From Nocardia arthritidis (GTDB lineage: Bacteria; Actinomycetota; Actinomycetes; Mycobacteriales; Mycobacteriaceae), in NCBI RefSeq assembly GCF_011801145.1, contig NZ_CP046172.1, positions 8,494,001 through 8,558,000 on the forward strand: a stretch of 64,000 bases of DNA. The letters run 5' to 3'. The translations under genes and the position numbers were made by a program. Under the pieces are notes generated by a model. The model ran no database searches and was not told the origin of the DNA. It was given only the letters and a program-made list of their open reading frames with translations. Shown here piece after piece: positions 4,470-13,796 of this stretch; position 1 is the stretch's first letter, and every line of letters starts with the position of its first letter.

Positions 4470-5681
4470 GTGAGCGGTATCAGGGTGTTGGTGGCGGGGG
4501 CGAGCATTGCGGGGCCCGCGCTTGCCCACTGGCTACGTCGGCGGGGAGCCGAAGTGACCGTGGTCGAGCGGGCCCCCGAGCTGCGTCCCGGCGGGCAGGC
4601 GGTGGACGCGCGCGGGGTGACCAAGGAGGTCATCCGGCGAATGGGATTGGACGCGGCCGTGCGCGCGGCGCGCACCGAGACCGCGGGCGCGTACACCGTG
4701 GACGCCGACGGGAACGTGCTGGAAACCTATCGCGCGGACGATAACGGCGGCGACGGGTACATCTCGGAGATCGAGATCCTGCGCGGAGACCTGTCCCAGG
4801 TGCTCTATGACGACACCCGCGACGAAGTCGAGTACCTCTTCGGCGACCGGATCGCCGAGCTCACCCAGGATGCGGACGGAGTCGACGTGGTCTTCGCGAG
4901 CGGCGACCGGCGGCGCTTCGACCTGGTGGTCGGGGCGGACGGACTGCATTCGGCACTGCGCGCGATGGTCTTCGGGCCGCACGAGCGGTTCGTCCGCCAT
5001 CTCGGACTCGTGCTGGCCTTCTACAGCGTGCCCAACGAGTTCGGGTTGGATGGCTGGCTGCTCGACTATCAGGATTCCGGGCGTTCGGCCGGCCTGCGAC
5101 CCATCCGGGATGCCACCCGGGCGATGGCCATGTTGTCCTTCCCCTCGGGGGACTTCGACGTCGACTACCGCGACGTCGCGGCTCAGAAGAGCCTGCTTCG
5201 CGAGCGGATGGCCGGGATGGGCTGGATGACCCCGCGCATCCTCGCCCACCTGGACGACACTCCGGACTTCTACCTCGATCAGGTCGCCCAGGTGGCGATG
5301 GACCGTTGGTCGAGCGGACGGGTGGCGTTGCTCGGAGACGCGGCGTTCAGCTCGTCACCGATGTCCGGAGGGGGTACCGGGCTGGCCCTGGTCGGCGCCT
5401 ATCTGCTGGCCGGAGAGCTGGCTGCCGCCGAATGGGACCCGGAGATCGGGTTCGCCCGGTACGAGACTCGGATGCGTCCGTTCGTCGAGGCCAATCAGGA
5501 GATCGGCCGGTTGCACGTGCGCAGCCTCATTTCCCCCGAACCGAGCGCGGATTTCGACGCCGAGTGGTTCGCCGAGTTGATCGAGCGCGCCATCAACGGC
5601 GTCGAACTGCCCGACTACGCAGGGGTGCCCGACTCCGGGACCCCTGCCGGAGCGCCGATCACCTCCTCCGCCAAACCATAG
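4470..5681 (+). CDS. FAD-dependent monooxygenase (PHBH-fold, aromatic hydroxylase type)
   Basis: 403 residues. Visible motifs are the Rossmann GASIAGPALAHWLRRRG (a GxGxxG variant near residue 10), VVERAPELRPGGQAVD after it, the DG fingerprint LVVGADGLHSALR near residue 160, and the second FAD-binding motif VALLGDAAFSSSPMSGGGTG near residue 290. These define class A flavoprotein monooxygenases using NAD(P)H. The start is GTG 4470 behind GGAGGCG. It is closely similar to the second monooxygenase at 46955. The context (AraC, EthD, SnoaL) points to catabolism or tailoring of an aromatic or polyketide-like compound; the substrate cannot be read. Confidence 0.88.
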   Translation: MSGIRVLVAGASIAGPALAHWLRRRGAEVTVVERAPELRPGGQAVDARGVTKEVIRRMGLDAAVRAARTETAGAYTVDADGNVLETYRADDNGGDGYISEIEILRGDLSQVLYDDTRDEVEYLFGDRIAELTQDADGVDVVFASGDRRRFDLVVGADGLHSALRAMVFGPHERFVRHLGLVLAFYSVPNEFGLDGWLLDYQDSGRSAGLRPIRDATRAMAMLSFPSGDFDVDYRDVAAQKSLLRERMAGMGWMTPRILAHLDDTPDFYLDQVAQVAMDRWSSGRVALLGDAAFSSSPMSGGGTGLALVGAYLLAGELAAAEWDPEIGFARYETRMRPFVEANQEIGRLHVRSLISPEPSADFDAEWFAELIERAINGVELPDYAGVPDSGTPAGAPITSSAKP

Positions 5682-5725: not shown

Positions 5726-6205
5726 ATGGCGGCGATATCCGAACTGCGTGACGCGCTGGAGCAGTCCGCGCTGGAACACCGCGTGCGGGCGTTCATCTAC
5801 ACCTGGCTGTGGCTCATCGAGCCGCCCGTCAAGGATGCGCGGCTCGTGCTCGATCTACTCGACGAGCACATCGCCATGCGGCTGTCCGATGGCCGCACGA
5901 TCACCACCCGTGCCGACATCACGGCCTGGTACGAGCAGACCGCGGGAGCCGTCTCGGCAAGCAGCCATCGCATCACGGCACTACACGTCCGCGCCGGCGA
6001 CGCCGGAACCGTTTACGCGAGTATCGATTTCGCGTGGCAGGGCATCGGCCCGGGCGACCAGGCCATGACGGCGCGCACACACCACGAATGGACCCTCGTC
6101 GACACGGGCGGCCCCCTGATGAAACTGCGCGATTTCGCCGTCACCGCACTGAAGCCCTTCGCCCCCAGCAGTATCGACGCGGCACTCGCCGAAGTCGGCC
6201 ATTGA
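5726..6205 (+). CDS. SnoaL-like / NTF2-fold protein
   Basis: About 159 residues, ATG 5726. The pattern is a nuclear-transport-factor-2 cone: helical start (LRDALEQSALEHRVRAFIYTW), then LLDEHIAMRLSDGRTITTRADITAWYEQ, and strands such as HRITALHVRAGDAGTVYAS and ARTHHEWTLVDTGG. Such proteins are polyketide cyclases, dehydratases or small-ligand binders; no catalytic residues are clear. It starts 44 bp after the monooxygenase in the same direction, so the two are probably co-transcribed. Confidence 0.72.
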   Translation: MAAISELRDALEQSALEHRVRAFIYTWLWLIEPPVKDARLVLDLLDEHIAMRLSDGRTITTRADITAWYEQTAGAVSASSHRITALHVRAGDAGTVYASIDFAWQGIGPGDQAMTARTHHEWTLVDTGGPLMKLRDFAVTALKPFAPSSIDAALAEVGH

Positions 6206-7715: not shown

Positions 7716-7889
7716 GCGCCACAGCCTCCTTGAACCGCGCACCCGCAACCACCTCACACGGCTGGCCCGGCGAACTCGAGCGCGCTGCAATGTCGACAGA
7801 CAGGAGTCCATGCATCACCCCGCGGTATCGTCTCCGCTCAGACTCCAGAGTGATCCCGGTGAATGCCGCAGGCTCCTACCGTCATCGGC

Positions 7890-9035
7890 ATGCCTCGAAC
7901 GAAAAAATTGCGAGACAACCACGCCCACAGGATCATTCGTGGCAGCGTCGCGCTCCTCGCGTCGGCTGCCGTCCTCGGGGGCTCGGCCGTGGGCGGCCTC
8001 GGCGTGGCCGTCGCCGATCCCACCGGCCAGCCCGTGAAGCCCACGGTGGCGGTGATCGGGCTGGGCGGAACGATTGCGGGCGCATCGGATCGCCGCACGA
8101 ACGTCGAGACCTACGAGCCCGGCAAACTCTCGATCTCGGACCTGGTCGGCTCACTGCATCCGGAGGTCGCCGACGTGGCCGACGTGTCGACGGAGGAGTT
8201 CGGTCATCGGGGCTCCACCGATTACACCCTCGCCGACTACTACGACTTGGCCCGGTTGATCGATCAGCGGCTCGCCGATCACGACGCGGTGGTCGTGAGC
8301 AGCGGCACCGCGACCATGGAGGAGCTGGCCTACTTCCTGGATCTCACGGTGCGCAGCACCAAACCGGTGGTCGTCACCGGGGCGATGCGACCGTGGACCG
8401 CGATCGGTAGCGACGGGCCGCCCAACCTGTACAACGCGATCCGACTGGGCGCCAGCGGGCGGACGAAATGTTTCGGCACCACCGTCACCCTCAACGACCA
8501 GATCTTCCCGGCCCGCGACGCCACCAAAACCGACTCCACCCGCCTGAACACCTTCACCACCCGCGAATACGGCGACCTGGGCACCATCGATGAGGCAGGA
8601 GTGCGCCTGCAGCGCGCCCCCGCCCGGATCAAGGATTGCGGCGACCCGGGTAAATGGGAGACCCCGTTCGACCTGTCGACCATCACCCGCGAGTCGCTGC
8701 CTCGCGTCGAGATCGCCTCCGCCTACCTCGCCGCCGCCGGCGAGCCTGTCACCGCTGATGTGGGGGCCGGCGCCAAGGGAATCGTCTTCGCGGGCACCCC
8801 GTCCCCCGGGCAGATGACTGCGGCCACCGCGGCCGCCGGCCACGGGGTCGCCGTGGTCGCTGCCAACGGATACGGTGCCGGCGCGATCTCGGTCGACCCG
8901 AAAGTCGGGGTGATCAGCGCCGGCGACCTGGCACCGAAGAAGGCCCGCATCCTGCTGCTGCTCGCCCTCACCAAAACCGCCGACACCCATCAGATCAGCG
9001 AGTGGTTCCGCCGCTACGGCAATGAGCAGTTCTGA
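7890..9035 (+). CDS. exported L-asparaginase-like protein with altered catalytic triad
   Basis: About 381 residues from ATG 7890; an in-frame ATG at 7863 is possible, and neither has a strong ribosome site. A basic start plus hydrophobic stretch ending VAVADP looks like a signal peptide. The type II asparaginase core follows: VIGLGGTIAG (first catalytic Thr), VVVSSGTATMEELAYFLDLT, VVTGAMRPWTAIGSDGPPN and RDATKTDST (Lys of the triad). In canonical enzymes the second motif is HGTDTMEE; here His becomes Ser and the triad Asp becomes Ala, while the second Thr and the Lys are kept. Amidohydrolase activity may be weak, altered or lost. Confidence 0.85.
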   Translation: MPRTKKLRDNHAHRIIRGSVALLASAAVLGGSAVGGLGVAVADPTGQPVKPTVAVIGLGGTIAGASDRRTNVETYEPGKLSISDLVGSLHPEVADVADVSTEEFGHRGSTDYTLADYYDLARLIDQRLADHDAVVVSSGTATMEELAYFLDLTVRSTKPVVVTGAMRPWTAIGSDGPPNLYNAIRLGASGRTKCFGTTVTLNDQIFPARDATKTDSTRLNTFTTREYGDLGTIDEAGVRLQRAPARIKDCGDPGKWETPFDLSTITRESLPRVEIASAYLAAAGEPVTADVGAGAKGIVFAGTPSPGQMTAATAAAGHGVAVVAANGYGAGAISVDPKVGVISAGDLAPKKARILLLLALTKTADTHQISEWFRRYGNEQF

Positions 9036-9398
9036 GAGTCGCTTCGACCGCAAGCTGCCCCGTCGGTAGTGAGATCGGCTGCGGCCCATAACCATTCGAT
9101 CATGCCGCCGATCGCGCTGACCGAACCGGCCGATGCGCGGCAGCGGCAAGCACCGAGCCCCACCCGAACACCGGATGGGCTCGACAGACCCGAATTCCTA
9201 TACGTTGAAACGGAATTCGACTACCGCTGCGCGGGCGTTGGTAGACCATCGGAATCGGTTGGGCAACAATGTCTTCCAACGTACGCACATGCCGATGTGA
9301 GGTAGGTCCGACGAGTTGGTTGCGTCGGCCGCCGTGCCCGGTTGGCCGGATCCCGAAGGCGGATGAGCGTTGTTGATGTAGTCGATCGCGGGCATGCG
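9036..9398. other. 363-bp non-coding stretch containing a ychF 3'-end remnant
   Basis: No plausible gene. It contains one copy of a repeat shared with the 3' end of ychF (9099-9224, listed separately). The rest (9225-9398) resembles nothing I recognise. The minus-strand frame 9198-9395 ends in the last codons of YchF (VVEFRFNV) but is not a gene. Confidence 0.6.
9099..9224 (-). repeat. direct repeat copy 1: duplicated ychF 3' end plus terminator
   Basis: The core 9153-9224 matches 12671-12743 with three substitutions and one 1-base deletion. It holds the last eight YchF codons with the stop (minus strand, 9198-9224) and the following hairpin. Weaker similarity continues to 9099. Beyond 9224 the two copies diverge completely. 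The same-orientation pair flanks the TetR/flavoprotein/NmrA cassette. Confidence 0.8.
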
Positions 9399-10229
9399 CT
9401 ACGGCGCGGCGAAGTCCGCGCGGTGGTCGTGGATCCACTGTCGATAGGTGCGTGGCTGTTCCGAGGGCAGGATCGTCGAAATAGGGGTCGGTTCGATCGG
9501 GTGCAGGATGGCGCGGTGGTAGTACCGCAGCAGTGAGTCGGCGATGTGGGACGGGGTGTGCTGCTCGGTCAGCAGTCGGTGACCGATGGCGGGCGAGACT
9601 TCTTCGAACCGGACCGGTTGGCCGAGGGCTTCACCGATCAACTCCGCTTGTCCGGCTTGGCTGATCAGTTCGGGTCCGGTGAGCACGGGCGCTGTCCCGG
9701 CGAGACTGTCTTCCAACATTGCGGCGGCCGCCGCGGCGGCCAGGTCTTGCTCATGGATCGGAGCGATACGAGCCTCGGCATAGGCGGCGCGAACGACGCC
9801 GTGCGTACGAATCAGGGGTGCCCACCACATGGTGTTGGTGGCGAACATACCGGATCGGAGGAATACCCATTCCAGTCCGGTCTTTTCGATGTGGCGTTCG
9901 AGTTCCCGGTGTGCGGTACCGGTGTGATTGTCGGGATGGTCGTCGAGCACCGATGAGGAGGACAGCAGCACGATGCGCCGCACACCGTGCGCCACCGCTC
10001 GAGACAGAAACTGCTCGGCGGTGCCGGGCACCGCGGCGGCGTTGAGGAATACTGTGGCGACCCCGTCGAGCGGGAACTGTCCGGCCGGCGCCGATACCGT
10101 CTCGACGCCTGGCGGCAGGCCAGCGGCTGCGGGGTTGCGAGTGACGGCTCTGACGTCGGCGCCTGCCGCGTAGAGCCGATCCACGAGGGCCCGGCCTACG
10201 TTTCCGGTTGCTGCCGTGATCAGAAACAT
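9399..10229 (-). CDS. NmrA-like NAD(P)-binding atypical SDR protein
   Basis: 276 residues from ATG 10229. It starts with the Rossmann motif FLITAATGNVGRALVDRLYA (GxxGxxG) and VRAVTRNPA, followed by FLNAAAVPGTAEQF and RRIVLLSSSSVLD, and lacks the YxxxK catalytic pair, as in NmrA/TMR-type atypical short-chain dehydrogenases. Such proteins sense or use NAD(P)H. It lies 29 bp downstream of the flavoprotein gene, probably in one operon with it, inside the region bounded by the ychF repeats. Confidence 0.85.
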   Translation of the reverse strand: MFLITAATGNVGRALVDRLYAAGADVRAVTRNPAAAGLPPGVETVSAPAGQFPLDGVATVFLNAAAVPGTAEQFLSRAVAHGVRRIVLLSSSSVLDDHPDNHTGTAHRELERHIEKTGLEWVFLRSGMFATNTMWWAPLIRTHGVVRAAYAEARIAPIHEQDLAAAAAAAMLEDSLAGTAPVLTGPELISQAGQAELIGEALGQPVRFEEVSPAIGHRLLTEQHTPSHIADSLLRYYHRAILHPIEPTPISTILPSEQPRTYRQWIHDHRADFAAP

Positions 10230-10258
10230 GTGTGTACTCCTGTGCGTCGGAAAGTAGT

Positions 10259-11872
10259 TCAGTGGGTTCGTGCCGCGTCGCGGCCGGCGATGCGGCCCCA
10301 GGTGAGGGCGGAGGCGATCGTGAGCCCCCCGGCGATGATGCCGGGCCCGAAGACGGCCGCGGCCGCATTCCCCGCCGCGTAGAGACCGGGGATCGCTTGT
10401 CCGGTCCAATCGAGAACGCGGGCATGCCGGTCGATACGGGCTCCGCCCTTGGTACCGACTGCTCCCGGGTGTACGGGGAGGGCGAAGAACGGGGGCTCGC
10501 CTACTGGGCCGAGGTTCGGATGCGCCGCGGCCGGGTCGCCGAAAGCATGCTCGTAGCGGGAGCGTCCGCGGCCGAAATCCTCGTCGTGACCGGTCGCGGC
10601 CATGTTGTTGAATCGGGTGATGGTGCTCGCCAAGGCGTCCGGGTCGATGCCGAGACGGGTGGCGAGGTCGCGGAGGTTGTCTGCCTGGATCAGCCAGTCC
10701 GGTGCCTGCGCACCCGCGGGGATCCCGGCGACCGAGTACTTGGCACGGAACTGAGCATCGCCGATCGCCCAGGCCGGCAGGTTCCTGAGCCGATGGGTGT
10801 TGGGGTCGAGTTCGGCGAACGCGGCGGCGCAGTTGTGGCTGGACTCGTTGACGAACCGGTGCCCGGCGGCGTTGACCCAGAGCACGTGCGGCAGTAACCG
10901 TTCCGGCAGCACCAATTGTGCCTGCGGTGTCGCGTCCGAGTCGGGCCAGACCGTGCCGGGGACCTGGTATGCGGGCCAGGACCAGTACTCACCCGGGTAC
11001 GCCATCGCCGCACCGATCTGTCCCGCCAACCGCAGGCCGTCACCGTTTTGCACCGGCGGGGTCACCGGGTGTGTGAGCGGCCCGGACAGCAATCGCGACC
11101 GCAGGTCGGCGTCGTGTTCGAATCCGCCGGTGGCCAGGATGACACCGCGCCGGGCACGCACTGTGCGGGCGGCACCACCTTGTTCGGCGCGCACACCCGC
11201 GATCCGGCCGTTGTCGGCGCGGAGCAATTCGACCACCCGGCATCCGCGCACCAGGCCGACACCCATGGCACGGCAGCCGTGGAGCAGCCCGATGATCAAG
11301 CCCGCGCCCAGGGTCACCACCTCGGCCGAGCTGCGTTGCGCGATCAGTTCCAGCGGTGGCGGCCCGCCGGCGAAGAGGCTGTGTTCGAATACCTCTTGAT
11401 TGGTGAGTACCGGTGCGAAAAGCGGTGCCGGCCAGACCAGTTCGTCGATTACGCCGAGGTCGCCGACAGCCACCGGGCGAACCTCGAGATGGCGGGACGA
11501 ATGGCCGCCCGGCAGCTCGACGAAAGTGTCCGGATATGCCGTGACCACCGACAATTCGATCGGGGTGCGTTCCTCGAGAAATCGCACCGTCTCCGGCACC
11601 GCCCGCACGAACGTCTCGATCAGGTCGTCCGGACGCCCGGGGGCCGCGGCGCGGCAATAGGTCAGGGCATTCTCGGCGGAGTCGGGGCAGCCGGCCTCAC
11701 GCATTCGATGGTTGGCCGGCGCCCAGATCTGCCCACCCGAGACCGCCGTCGAGCCGCCCCACCGTGCGGACGCCTCCAGTACCACAACCTCGGCGCCACC
11801 ATCCGCGGCCGCGAGCGCGGCAGCCAAACCAGCTGCGCCCGAACCGATCACCACAACATCCACGTCTTCCAT
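10259..11872 (-). CDS. FAD-dependent oxidoreductase, ketosteroid-dehydrogenase / fumarate-reductase flavoprotein family
   Basis: 537 residues from ATG 11872, preceded by GGAGGG. FAD-binding VVVIGSGAAGLAAALAAADG is at the start, VVLEASARWGGSTAVSGGQI follows, RRGVILATGGFEHDADLR lies in the middle, and PGLYAAGNAAAAVFGPG with GGLTIASALTWG is at the C-terminus. This is the 3-ketosteroid delta-1-dehydrogenase / fumarate reductase flavoprotein superfamily. Substrate is unproven; a steroid-like or cyclic ketone is a reasonable guess. A perfect 36-bp palindrome sits immediately upstream, between this gene and tetR. Confidence 0.85.
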   Translation of the reverse strand: MEDVDVVVIGSGAAGLAAALAAADGGAEVVVLEASARWGGSTAVSGGQIWAPANHRMREAGCPDSAENALTYCRAAAPGRPDDLIETFVRAVPETVRFLEERTPIELSVVTAYPDTFVELPGGHSSRHLEVRPVAVGDLGVIDELVWPAPLFAPVLTNQEVFEHSLFAGGPPPLELIAQRSSAEVVTLGAGLIIGLLHGCRAMGVGLVRGCRVVELLRADNGRIAGVRAEQGGAARTVRARRGVILATGGFEHDADLRSRLLSGPLTHPVTPPVQNGDGLRLAGQIGAAMAYPGEYWSWPAYQVPGTVWPDSDATPQAQLVLPERLLPHVLWVNAAGHRFVNESSHNCAAAFAELDPNTHRLRNLPAWAIGDAQFRAKYSVAGIPAGAQAPDWLIQADNLRDLATRLGIDPDALASTITRFNNMAATGHDEDFGRGRSRYEHAFGDPAAAHPNLGPVGEPPFFALPVHPGAVGTKGGARIDRHARVLDWTGQAIPGLYAAGNAAAAVFGPGIIAGGLTIASALTWGRIAGRDAARTH

Positions 11873-11880
11873 GAGCCCTC

Positions 11881-11916
11881 CACACCTATTTGTTAACACG
11901 TTAACAAATAGGTGTG
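11881..11916. promoter_or_regulatory. perfect 36-bp palindromic operator
   Basis: The arms CACACCTATTTGTTAAC (11881-11897) and its exact complement (11900-11916) are separated by AC. It fills the 49-bp gap between the tetR stop and the flavoprotein start. The AT-rich core TTGTTAACACGTTAACAA looks like a TetR-family operator. The absence of a following U-run and the position just before a ribosome site argue against a simple terminator. Confidence 0.7.
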
Positions 11917-11921
11917 GAGTG

Positions 11922-12569
11922 TCAAGATCGTGCGATCACACCATCGAGTAACGCGGTGAGTCCGTAGTCGTAGTTCTCCCAGGGATGCGGCCAGTCGGAT
12001 GCCAGCGCGGCGATCGTAGGGGTCAGTTCCGAATCGGCTTCCATGATCATGCGCACCTGACCGGGCTGATTCGGGTCGGAGCGGGCTCGATCGGACCCGC
12101 TCCGGATGGTGAGGACACCGACCGTGAACTGCCACACCGCGCGGTATGCGGACGCCGCCTGCTCGTGGTCCAGACCGCAGGCCAAGAATGCCCGCAAGAT
12201 CTCCTCGACCACCCACAAGATCGCCCGACTGGCAAGATCTCCGCCGACCAGGACACCCACCACCCAGGGTCGCGCGGCAAGGGTGTCGTACAGCAGCCGC
12301 CATAACACCACTAGTCGCTGCCGCGGGTCTTCGGGTAGATCGGGCCGCCCGAGCTCACCCGCAACGTCGTCCAGCAGCGCCAGCAGCATCTCGTCCTTGT
12401 CACGCACGTGCCGGTAGATCGCCGTGGGAGAGCTCGACAGCCGATCCGCGACCCGGCGCATGGTCAACGCCTCGATACCTTCGGACTCCACGATCTGTTC
12501 CGCGGCCGCGACAACCGCCTCGCGGGACAGTCTGGCCGGCCGACCCCGGCGCCGCATCGAGTCAGTCAT
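11922..12569 (-). CDS. TetR-family transcriptional regulator
   Basis: 215 residues from ATG 12569 (GTG 12575 is possible). The N-terminal HTH is clear: RLSREAVVAAAEQIVESEGI, then LTMRRVADRLSSSPTAIYRHVRDKDEML. The C-terminal ligand domain is of the tetracycline-repressor-like type. It lies just upstream of the flavoprotein gene on the same strand, with the 36-bp palindrome between them, so it probably represses the flavoprotein-NmrA pair. A short TGTCA/TGACA inverted repeat (12580-12596) before its start could be an autoregulatory site. Confidence 0.88.
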   Translation of the reverse strand: MTDSMRRRGRPARLSREAVVAAAEQIVESEGIEALTMRRVADRLSSSPTAIYRHVRDKDEMLLALLDDVAGELGRPDLPEDPRQRLVVLWRLLYDTLAARPWVVGVLVGGDLASRAILWVVEEILRAFLACGLDHEQAASAYRAVWQFTVGVLTIRSGSDRARSDPNQPGQVRMIMEADSELTPTIAALASDWPHPWENYDYGLTALLDGVIARS

Positions 12570-12601
12570 CAGCACAGTCTGTCACCGCCACTGACAAGAC
12601 G

Positions 12602-12743
12602 GTCATGCCCCCGAACGCGCACCGCATACCGCGCGGACCGGACCGACCAATGCGCCGCGGCGGCAAACGACCGAGCCCCACCCGGACACCGGATGGGGCT
12701 CGGCAGACCCGAATTCCTATACGTTAAAACGGAATTCGACTAC
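12602..12743 (-). repeat. direct repeat copy 2: native ychF 3' end plus terminator
   Basis: This copy is continuous with the intact ychF gene. The core 12671-12743 matches 9153-9224 at about 95% over 73 positions; similarity with indels extends to 12602. Together the two copies bracket about 3.4 kb. Confidence 0.8.
12671..12700 (-). terminator. ychF terminator hairpin
   Basis: Downstream of the ychF stop, CCGAGCCCCA pairs with TGGGGCTCGG (10-bp perfect stem, 13-base loop, boundary accurate to a few bases). Only a weak T-rich tail follows. The same hairpin, with a bulge, exists in the duplicated copy at 9153-9183. Confidence 0.55.
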
Positions 12744-13796
12744 GTCGCCGTCCGCCATGACGTAGTCCTTGCCTTCCATGCGCACCTTGCCCGCGGATTT
12801 GGCGGCGGACATGGAGCCTGCGGCGACGAGGTCGTCGAAGGCGACGATTTCGGCTTTGATGAAGCCGCGTTCGAAGTCGGAGTGGATGACGCCCGCGGCT
12901 TTGGGGGCGGTGTCGCCCTGGTGAATTGTCCAGGCGCGGGCCTCTTTCGGGCCGGCGGTGAGGTAGGTCTGTAGGCCGAGGGTGTGGAATCCGGCGCGGG
13001 CGAGCGCATGCAGGCCCGGTTCGGTCTGACCGATGGATTCCAGGAGCTCGGCGGCGGATTCGGCGTCCAACTCGAGCAACTCGGCCTCCACCTTGGCATC
13101 GAGGAAGACCGAATCTGCCGGGGCCACACTGGCTTTCAGCTCGGCGACCTTCGCCTCATCGGACAGCACCGATTCGTCGGCGTTGAAGACGTACAGGAAC
13201 GGTTTGGTGGTGAGCAGCGAAAGTTCTTTCAGCAGTTCACCATCCACCTGATCGCGGGCGGCGAAGAGGGTTTTGCCGCCGTTCAGGATCTCCTGCGCGG
13301 CCTTGGCGGCGTCGGCGACCGGCTTGCGGTCCTTCTTGACCTTCGCCTCCTTCTCCAACCGCACGACCGCCTTTTCCAGGGTCTGCAGGTCGGCGAGGAT
13401 CAGCTCGGTCTCGATCACCTCGATGTCGGCGGCCGGGTCGACCCGGCCGTCGACGTGGATCACGTCACCGTCGGCGAAGACCCGCACCACCTGGCAGATG
13501 GCGTCGGCCTCGCGGATGTTGGCGAGGAATTTGTTGCCGAGGCCCGCGCCCTCGGACGCGCCCTTCACGATGCCCGCGATATCGACGAAGGACACCGTGG
13601 CGGGCACGATCCGCTCGGAACCGAAGATCTCGGCCAGCTTGTCCAGCCGCGGATCGGGCAGCGGGACCACGCCGACGTTCGGCTCGATGGTCGCGAACGG
13701 GTAGTTCGCGGCCAGCACGTCGTTTTTGGTCAGCGCGTTGAACAGCGTCGACTTTCCGACGTTGGGCAGGCCGACGATTCCGAGGGTCAGACTCAC
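12717..13796 (-). CDS. ychF: redox-regulated ribosome-binding ATPase YchF
   Basis: 359 residues, full length for the family. The N-terminus is [20 protein letters not shown] (G1 Walker A, NVGKS), then [21 protein letters not shown] (G3), and FNADES in place of NKxD, the change that gives YchF/OLA1 its ATP preference. A coiled-coil insert (about residues 130-200) and a C-terminal TGS domain ending FEREDGED-like to VVEFRFNV complete it. It binds ribosomes and affects stress translation. It corresponds to Rv1112 in the conserved neighbourhood. Its last codons are duplicated at 9198-9224. Confidence 0.97.

Follow-up and report, generated by a model that had tools for sequence, protein, structure and literature searches.

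The 3' end of ychF in Nocardia: a duplicated gene tail in Nocardia arthritidis and a probable recurrent place of att-flanked insertion

Why should the last codons of an intact gene occur a second time, with three other genes standing between the two copies? The question is raised by ychF, the gene of a universally conserved GTPase, in a stretch of 64,000 nucleotides from Nocardia arthritidis (contig NZ_CP046172.1, positions 8,494,001 to 8,558,000 of the forward strand; hereafter the window, whose own positions are used throughout). An earlier note on this DNA had proposed an insertion at the ychF 3' end, flanked by attachment (att) sites. This proposal is now well supported for a process that recurs in Nocardia and in other genera; for the window copy it is the best of the readings considered and is unproven there. 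We consider it reasonably probable that the ychF 3' end is the chromosomal attachment site (attB) of a clade of large serine integrases and that the window's 3.5-kb segment is an integrase-less insert at this site.

The duplication of the ychF end in the same orientation was borne out by two pairs of direct repeats, 9177-9224 with 12696-12743 (48 nt, 96%) and 9152-9179 with 12670-12697 (28 nt, 96%), which BLAST merged into one match of 9105-9224 against 12622-12743 (88% identity, E 1.8e-35). The repeat has two copies only in the 10.0-Mb genome, where the next-best BLAST match had an E of 0.11. The gene itself was, as had been claimed, kept intact beside the insert: ychF (12717-13796, minus strand; PF06071 1.4e-38, PF01926 2.7e-21) encodes a complete protein of 359 amino acids with the C-terminus VVEFRFNV. 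Its last nine codons (12717-12743, minus strand) were recognised from core matches and boundary comparison as the proximal copy of the proposed att core, and are followed by a native-type 3' untranslated region (UTR) with a terminator-like hairpin (T1; 12622-12716, minus strand). A second copy of these nine codons, the displaced core (9198-9224, minus strand), is followed by a second native-type 3' UTR, again with a terminator-like hairpin (T2; 9105-9197, minus strand), and beyond it lies a convergent asparaginase gene (7863-9035, plus strand). Open reading frames (ORFs) and domains confirmed the three genes named in the note between the two tails, all on the minus strand: a tetR-family regulator (11922-12569; PF00440, PF02909), an FAD-binding, KstD-like oxidoreductase with an FAD_binding_2 domain (10259-11872; PF00890 2.4e-65) and an NAD(P)-binding NmrA-like protein (9399-10229; PF13460 3.5e-15, PF05368 3.8e-08). 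The flavoprotein matched models of 3-oxosteroid 1-dehydrogenase at 5e-111, yet stayed under their curated cut-offs (371.8 bits; cut-off 788); the name KstD is acceptable in a loose sense. A domain search identified no recombinase among the three genes, and the interval indeed holds no integrase.

Is this arrangement peculiar to the window? The gene ychF was present in all 150 Nocardia genomes searched, the window's own (G000) included. We compared the window with the ychF loci of 140 of the 149 other genomes, each with up to 16 kb downstream (genomes are numbered G, loci L). G005, G022, G047, G053, G106, G109, G130, G134 and G140 were left out of this set, some downstream stretches were short at contig ends, and L124, L134 and L135 had almost nothing downstream. 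Matches to the 24-nt ychF-end core were counted with at most two mismatches, since those with three or four fell on both strands (10 versus 3 and 6 versus 5). At this threshold, the downstream regions contained 39 cores with the orientation of ychF and 0 with the opposite one (141 loci, 2.10 Mb), and at least one displaced core was present in 33 of the 141 loci. The same core beside different cassettes, for which a search of other genomes had been suggested, was found, the intervals of these 33 loci being varied. Across whole genomes, exact core matches occurred in 130 of 150 and a reversed control pattern gave none; apart from those in G005, G039, G081, G097 and G142, that of G081 sitting at a contig start, every match listed was either at ychF itself or within about 24 kb downstream of it on its contig. 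A displaced core that is simply a widespread terminator or small coding motif, paired with ychF by chance, would fit the terminator-like hairpin that the repeat does contain. The two genome copies, the strand bias and the empty reversed control in 150 genomes contradict this explanation, and its probability is close to nil. The core proved bound to ychF rather than spread over many unrelated loci, which distinguishes it from repetitive extragenic palindromic (REP)-type elements and dispersed terminators; only the neighbouring stretch 9224-9298 is dispersed.

Where does the second tail begin? Upstream of a GT within the core, the run of identity between displaced copies and ychF had a median of 0 bp and was at most 10 bp in 38 of 39 cases. 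It measured 3 bp for the window's displaced copy and 63 bp for the outlier L143. The duplication of the tail thus recurs with a fixed boundary, and the GT at 12740-12739 of the proximal core is the candidate crossover dinucleotide. A duplication longer than the core type occurs in L055 (G097), where 116 codons of ychF recur 2 kb downstream of the complete gene. The ends of ychF also differ among genomes: FNV was found in 113 of 141, SGLASGKK, SGVASPSKNK and other forms in the rest, two of which were cut by contig ends, and the variation starts after GTCGARTTCCG. Judged from these sequences, it looks as if the tail had been donated by an incoming end.

Occupied and empty forms of the site were observed as well. 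The flank after the displaced copy aligned with the flank after another genome's own ychF end, so that the same block follows either, in L109 (core at 6106) against L064 (93.6% over 1444 bp, from nucleotide 5/5) and in L102 (core at 9223) against L069 (92.9% over 1436 bp, from nucleotide 1/1). Further pairs were L089 and L062 (92.6%, 1344 bp), L071 and L048 (93.2%, 811 bp) and L102 and L077 (89.9%, 1164 bp). Nine loci (L044, L063, L065, L071, L084, L100, L102, L107 and L109) had the native terminator type after the displaced copy. Around the GT, some displaced cores showed a half-site pattern, CGGAACTCG-GT-CGAGTTCCG; a symmetry of at least 6/9 was reached by 16 of the 39 displaced cores, by 0 of 136 own ychF ends and by 1.6% of random pairings.

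Which enzyme could act at such a site? In L107 and L044, a large serine recombinase (PF00239 1e-30, PF07508 6e-17) stands beside the displaced core. Relatives of this integrase, at E 1e-60 or better, were detected in nine of the 150 Nocardia genomes (10 matches), and six of the nine (G009, G015, G034, G061, G075 and G147) had theirs on the ychF contig, 5-22 kb downstream of the gene. For G080 and G081, where ychF and the integrase are on separate contigs, each of the two contigs ended within a few bases of the core. The integrase started 16-28 bp from the core in G009, G015, G061, G147 and G075. A search at the level of the order gave an integrase match in 11 of 298 genomes; the distance from the integrase to ychF was determined in six of them and came to 43 bp to 16 kb in five (G364, G414, G151, G426 and G168) and to 120 kb in G196.

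The association extends to other actinobacteria. A scan of GTDB genomes by integrase alignment gave 97 relatives, the best 80 of which were kept. Among these best 80 of 97 loci, ychF was seen in 47, and ychF or the core stood beside the integrase in 64, a core being called near when it had at most three mismatches and lay between -400 and +2200 bp of the integrase start; L221 and L222 share one contig, and the core of L276 lies beyond the integrase. On viral contigs, 4 of 36 integrase loci had a core nearby, one of the four together with ychF. A quick tree was made from 109 of 116 integrase sequences (seven short ones dropped); in it, all 62 ychF-linked rows fell inside one group of 80 rows with a support of 100. 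Relatives were also present in 1049 phage records, all below 60% identity, the best-covered rows at 41-49%. Starting from the ychF end, the elements of Varibaculum, Arcanobacterium and Corynebacterium were 97-98% identical over 11.6-11.9 kb, and the same element was shared by Actinotignum at 93-96% in parts. The loci L246-L259 from these four genera have nearly identical integrases and long common element DNA at the ychF end. More distant integrase relatives, in L203, L209 and L210, are flanked by what we read as a Walker-A ATPase-like coding sequence, not by ychF. A recombinase common to the other Nocardia cassettes was sought by a crude motif scan of the ORFs of the first 81 loci and by PF07508 and PF00589 searches of 33 genomes; none emerged near ychF beyond G015 and G075, for PF00589 among the matches listed.

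Taken together, the ychF site in the relatives has acquired foreign DNA repeatedly, probably by way of integrases aimed at the ychF end. We propose that this end serves as attB for the clade and that recombination at the central GT in the last ychF codons would put the arriving DNA downstream of the gene. A replacement tail would come with the incoming end, for which reason ychF would stay intact, and the former tail and its terminator would be displaced outward. Repeated insertions may build tandem arrays of cassettes, mostly integrase-less, the integrase having been lost later or the cassette having been transferred in trans. Catalysis by the integrase, crossover at the GT, movement in trans and an origin of the window's insert by the same route are what we infer from the observed boundary, the occupied and empty pairs and the integrases beside the site. 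The window's tetR-flavoprotein-NmrA segment would now be immobile unless an integrase arrived in trans.

The content of the intervals is diverse. The 39 intervals, the window's included, measured 730 to 10,399 bp (median 3147), and 17 were under 2.5 kb. A crude script yielded 150 cargo ORFs from 32 loci, the window excluded, two of the 32 giving none. The domains among the 25 of 109 families listed included eight PIN, seven VapB, two Abi_2, two GmrSD and two resolvase matches. HigA scored above cut-off in L142 and the VapC of L171 below it; in L171 and L122, vapBC stands alone between two cores. PADLOC matched AbiD (L089), a PD-T4-6-like kinase (L084) and a methyltransferase with a specificity protein (L162), and among others a type IV restriction system (L099) and NsnA (L165). 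Several large cargo proteins, in L099 (802 amino acids), L058, L044 and L143, had no match to any model. In L177, an ORF of 942 amino acids between two cores matched a DddA-like deaminase domain (3.4e-08).

What, then, of the window's own insert? Its three-gene unit exists apart from ychF in relatives. It lies elsewhere in the chromosome of G117 (91%) and G100 (90%), with no core within 1.5 kb there, and the homology ends at 12618 on one side and at 9296 (G117; extent 9296-12618) or 9387 (G100; extent 9387-12618) on the other, near the edges of the ychF-tail repeat. Besides the window's own, twelve genomes of the 150 matched the unit partly or fully, every match being away from ychF or on another contig. 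The earlier note would have been refuted by all relatives carrying the same genes and both repeats; none of the 12 matching genomes has them at ychF. The stretch 9224-9298 that separates the displaced core from the unit is one copy of a dispersed intergenic Nocardia repeat of about 75 bp, with at least four further copies in the window genome and others in relatives; we had considered this arm as a recurrent end of the element and rejected it for that reason. Copies of the repeat were seen at L338, L339, L340 and L341-L349, several of them near 5.48-5.51 Mb of the window genome.

This repeat gives some room to a local duplication, in which the ychF tail and terminator would have been copied within the genome, for example by way of the abutting dispersed repeat, the three genes having arrived separately. 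The displaced core and the three-gene unit are separated by exactly this repeat, and the G117 homology of the unit ends at the edge of the repeat. Against this, the repeat abuts the core in 0 of the 140 other loci, 32 of which have displaced cores nevertheless, and the cut at the GT is left unexplained. We regard a local duplication as improbable.

A weightier alternative, still unlikely in our estimate, is homologous or homology-facilitated illegitimate recombination without any integrase. A foreign ychF tail with its terminator and the three genes would have recombined within ychF on one side and been joined through a few common bases on the other. Both window tails carry native-type 3' UTRs, 88% alike, which would agree with such an event, as would the want of a symmetric half-site and of a close integrase homologue. 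L143 and G097 (L055), too, have longer ychF-tail duplications that are not cut at the GT. The window's ychF looks mosaic: its likeness to that of G026 (L039) is 98% in the first 210 nt, 94% in the part that follows and 82-88% after that, with upstream DNA at only about 78%. This mosaic favours recombination in the gene, but the tract lies at the 5' end of ychF and not beside the insert. Furthermore, the window's break falls 3 bp from the common GT, for which we estimate a chance of about 1% if breaks were spread evenly over ychF.

Several findings also weigh against an att-flanked insertion. For the process as a whole, 108 of the 141 loci had no displaced core in the stretch covered, and 23 of the 39 displaced cores lacked half-site symmetry. 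A PF07508 recombinase was found near ychF in only two of the 33 genomes with a displaced core (G015 and G075), which makes the integrase link indirect for most intervals. The integrase of G113 (70%) lies away from ychF, and that of G034 lies near ychF without a recognisable core. In the tree, 18 rows of the 80-row group were not seen at ychF, and 17 changes are required to fit the ychF label, compared with a mean of 35.7 after shuffling. For the window copy, the displaced junction scored 0/9 for half-site symmetry, the lowest of the 39, and the genome has no integrase homologue at E 1e-60, its two PF07508 matches both being far from ychF. Alone among the 141 loci, the window has its displaced core abutting the dispersed repeat. 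The search for an empty relative gave none, nothing past the displaced copy aligning as a post-core flank with any other locus; the nearest relatives over ychF and its upstream DNA are only about 86% alike, and T1 and T2 are not assignable to donor and recipient. Native-type 3' UTRs on both tails, as also seen in L044, L065, L071, L084 and L109, need not be expected of a plain attL/attR pair. An insert with a ychF 3' UTR at both ends could have come from a circle excised from an older array, in which the 3' UTR of ychF itself and adjacent genes lay between two cores. The proposal of the earlier note therefore stands for the recurrent process, and its proof is incomplete for the window copy because of the dispersed-repeat flank, the missing half-site symmetry, the missing empty relative and the missing close integrase homologue.

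Site-specific insertion at gene ends by large serine recombinases is a known kind of event, as are the arrays of staphylococcal cassette chromosomes (SCC), among which tandem arrays and elements without a recombinase of their own occur. Integrons carry arrays of small cassettes, and toxin-antitoxin modules are present in some of these. A paper on SCC (PMC12016501) describes large serine recombinases, insertion at a housekeeping gene, borders marked by near-identical direct repeats, and methyltransferase cargo. The ychF-site elements resemble SCC in the large serine recombinase, the housekeeping-gene target, the direct repeats at the borders and the methyltransferase cargo, and most Nocardia intervals, without a recombinase and some with toxin-antitoxin or defence-like genes, recall SCC by analogy. 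They differ in the target, which is ychF and not rlmH, in having a single integrase and not a Ccr pair, with 68.9 bits against CcrB models, far under the cut-off of 900, and in their actinobacterial hosts. The ychF site is integron-like in its small arrayed cassettes, some with toxin-antitoxin genes, and unlike integrons in its large serine recombinase and in that the repeated site is a gene end; PF00589, the tyrosine recombinase domain, was absent near ychF among the matches listed for the 33 displaced-core genomes. With the serine-integrase prophages and integrative and conjugative elements (ICEs) of actinobacteria, these elements share the PF00239 and PF07508 domains, whereas the ychF site holds mostly short integrase-less cassettes in arrays. 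In a survey of actinomycete ICEs (AICEs), 19 of 144 used a serine recombinase (PMC3218068), and the parts of this survey at hand do not name ychF. Pneumococcal prophages integrate beside ychF according to two papers (PMC8637289, PMC10383233), on the upstream side rather than at the 3' end, and in another phylum. An integration site at the ychF 3' end in actinobacteria was not found among the titles and abstract openings listed in searches of open-licence literature. Pseudo-attB sites of PhiBT1 in Nocardia have reportedly been the subject of a published study (PMC5937489).

Two further features of the window may be mentioned. In the gap between tetR and the flavoprotein gene, an inverted repeat (11878-11919) whose 20-bp arms match perfectly and stand 2 nt apart is a likely operator of the TetR protein. 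A gene that we read as monooxygenase-like (4470-5681, plus strand) is also present downstream of ychF in L041, L086, L082 and L081 (80-88%); for the window's asparaginase, none of the other 140 loci gave a match in the region downstream of ychF (E 1e-25, 40% identity).

In the widest form of the proposal, the ychF 3' end would be a dedicated landing site for one integrase clade across Actinomycetota, with SCC- or integron-like arrays in Nocardia, made of cassettes of 0.7-10 kb, mostly integrase-less, that carry toxin-antitoxin, defence or metabolic genes and move in trans, the window's cassette included. We put this forward tentatively and would not quite call it probable. If this is true, mobile DNA would have a common point of entry into many actinobacteria at a universally conserved GTPase gene, at whose end defence and toxin-antitoxin cargo could be looked for. 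It would also yield a collection of serine integrases whose target can be predicted, and allow a test of cassette shuffling in arrays by a serine integrase acting in trans.

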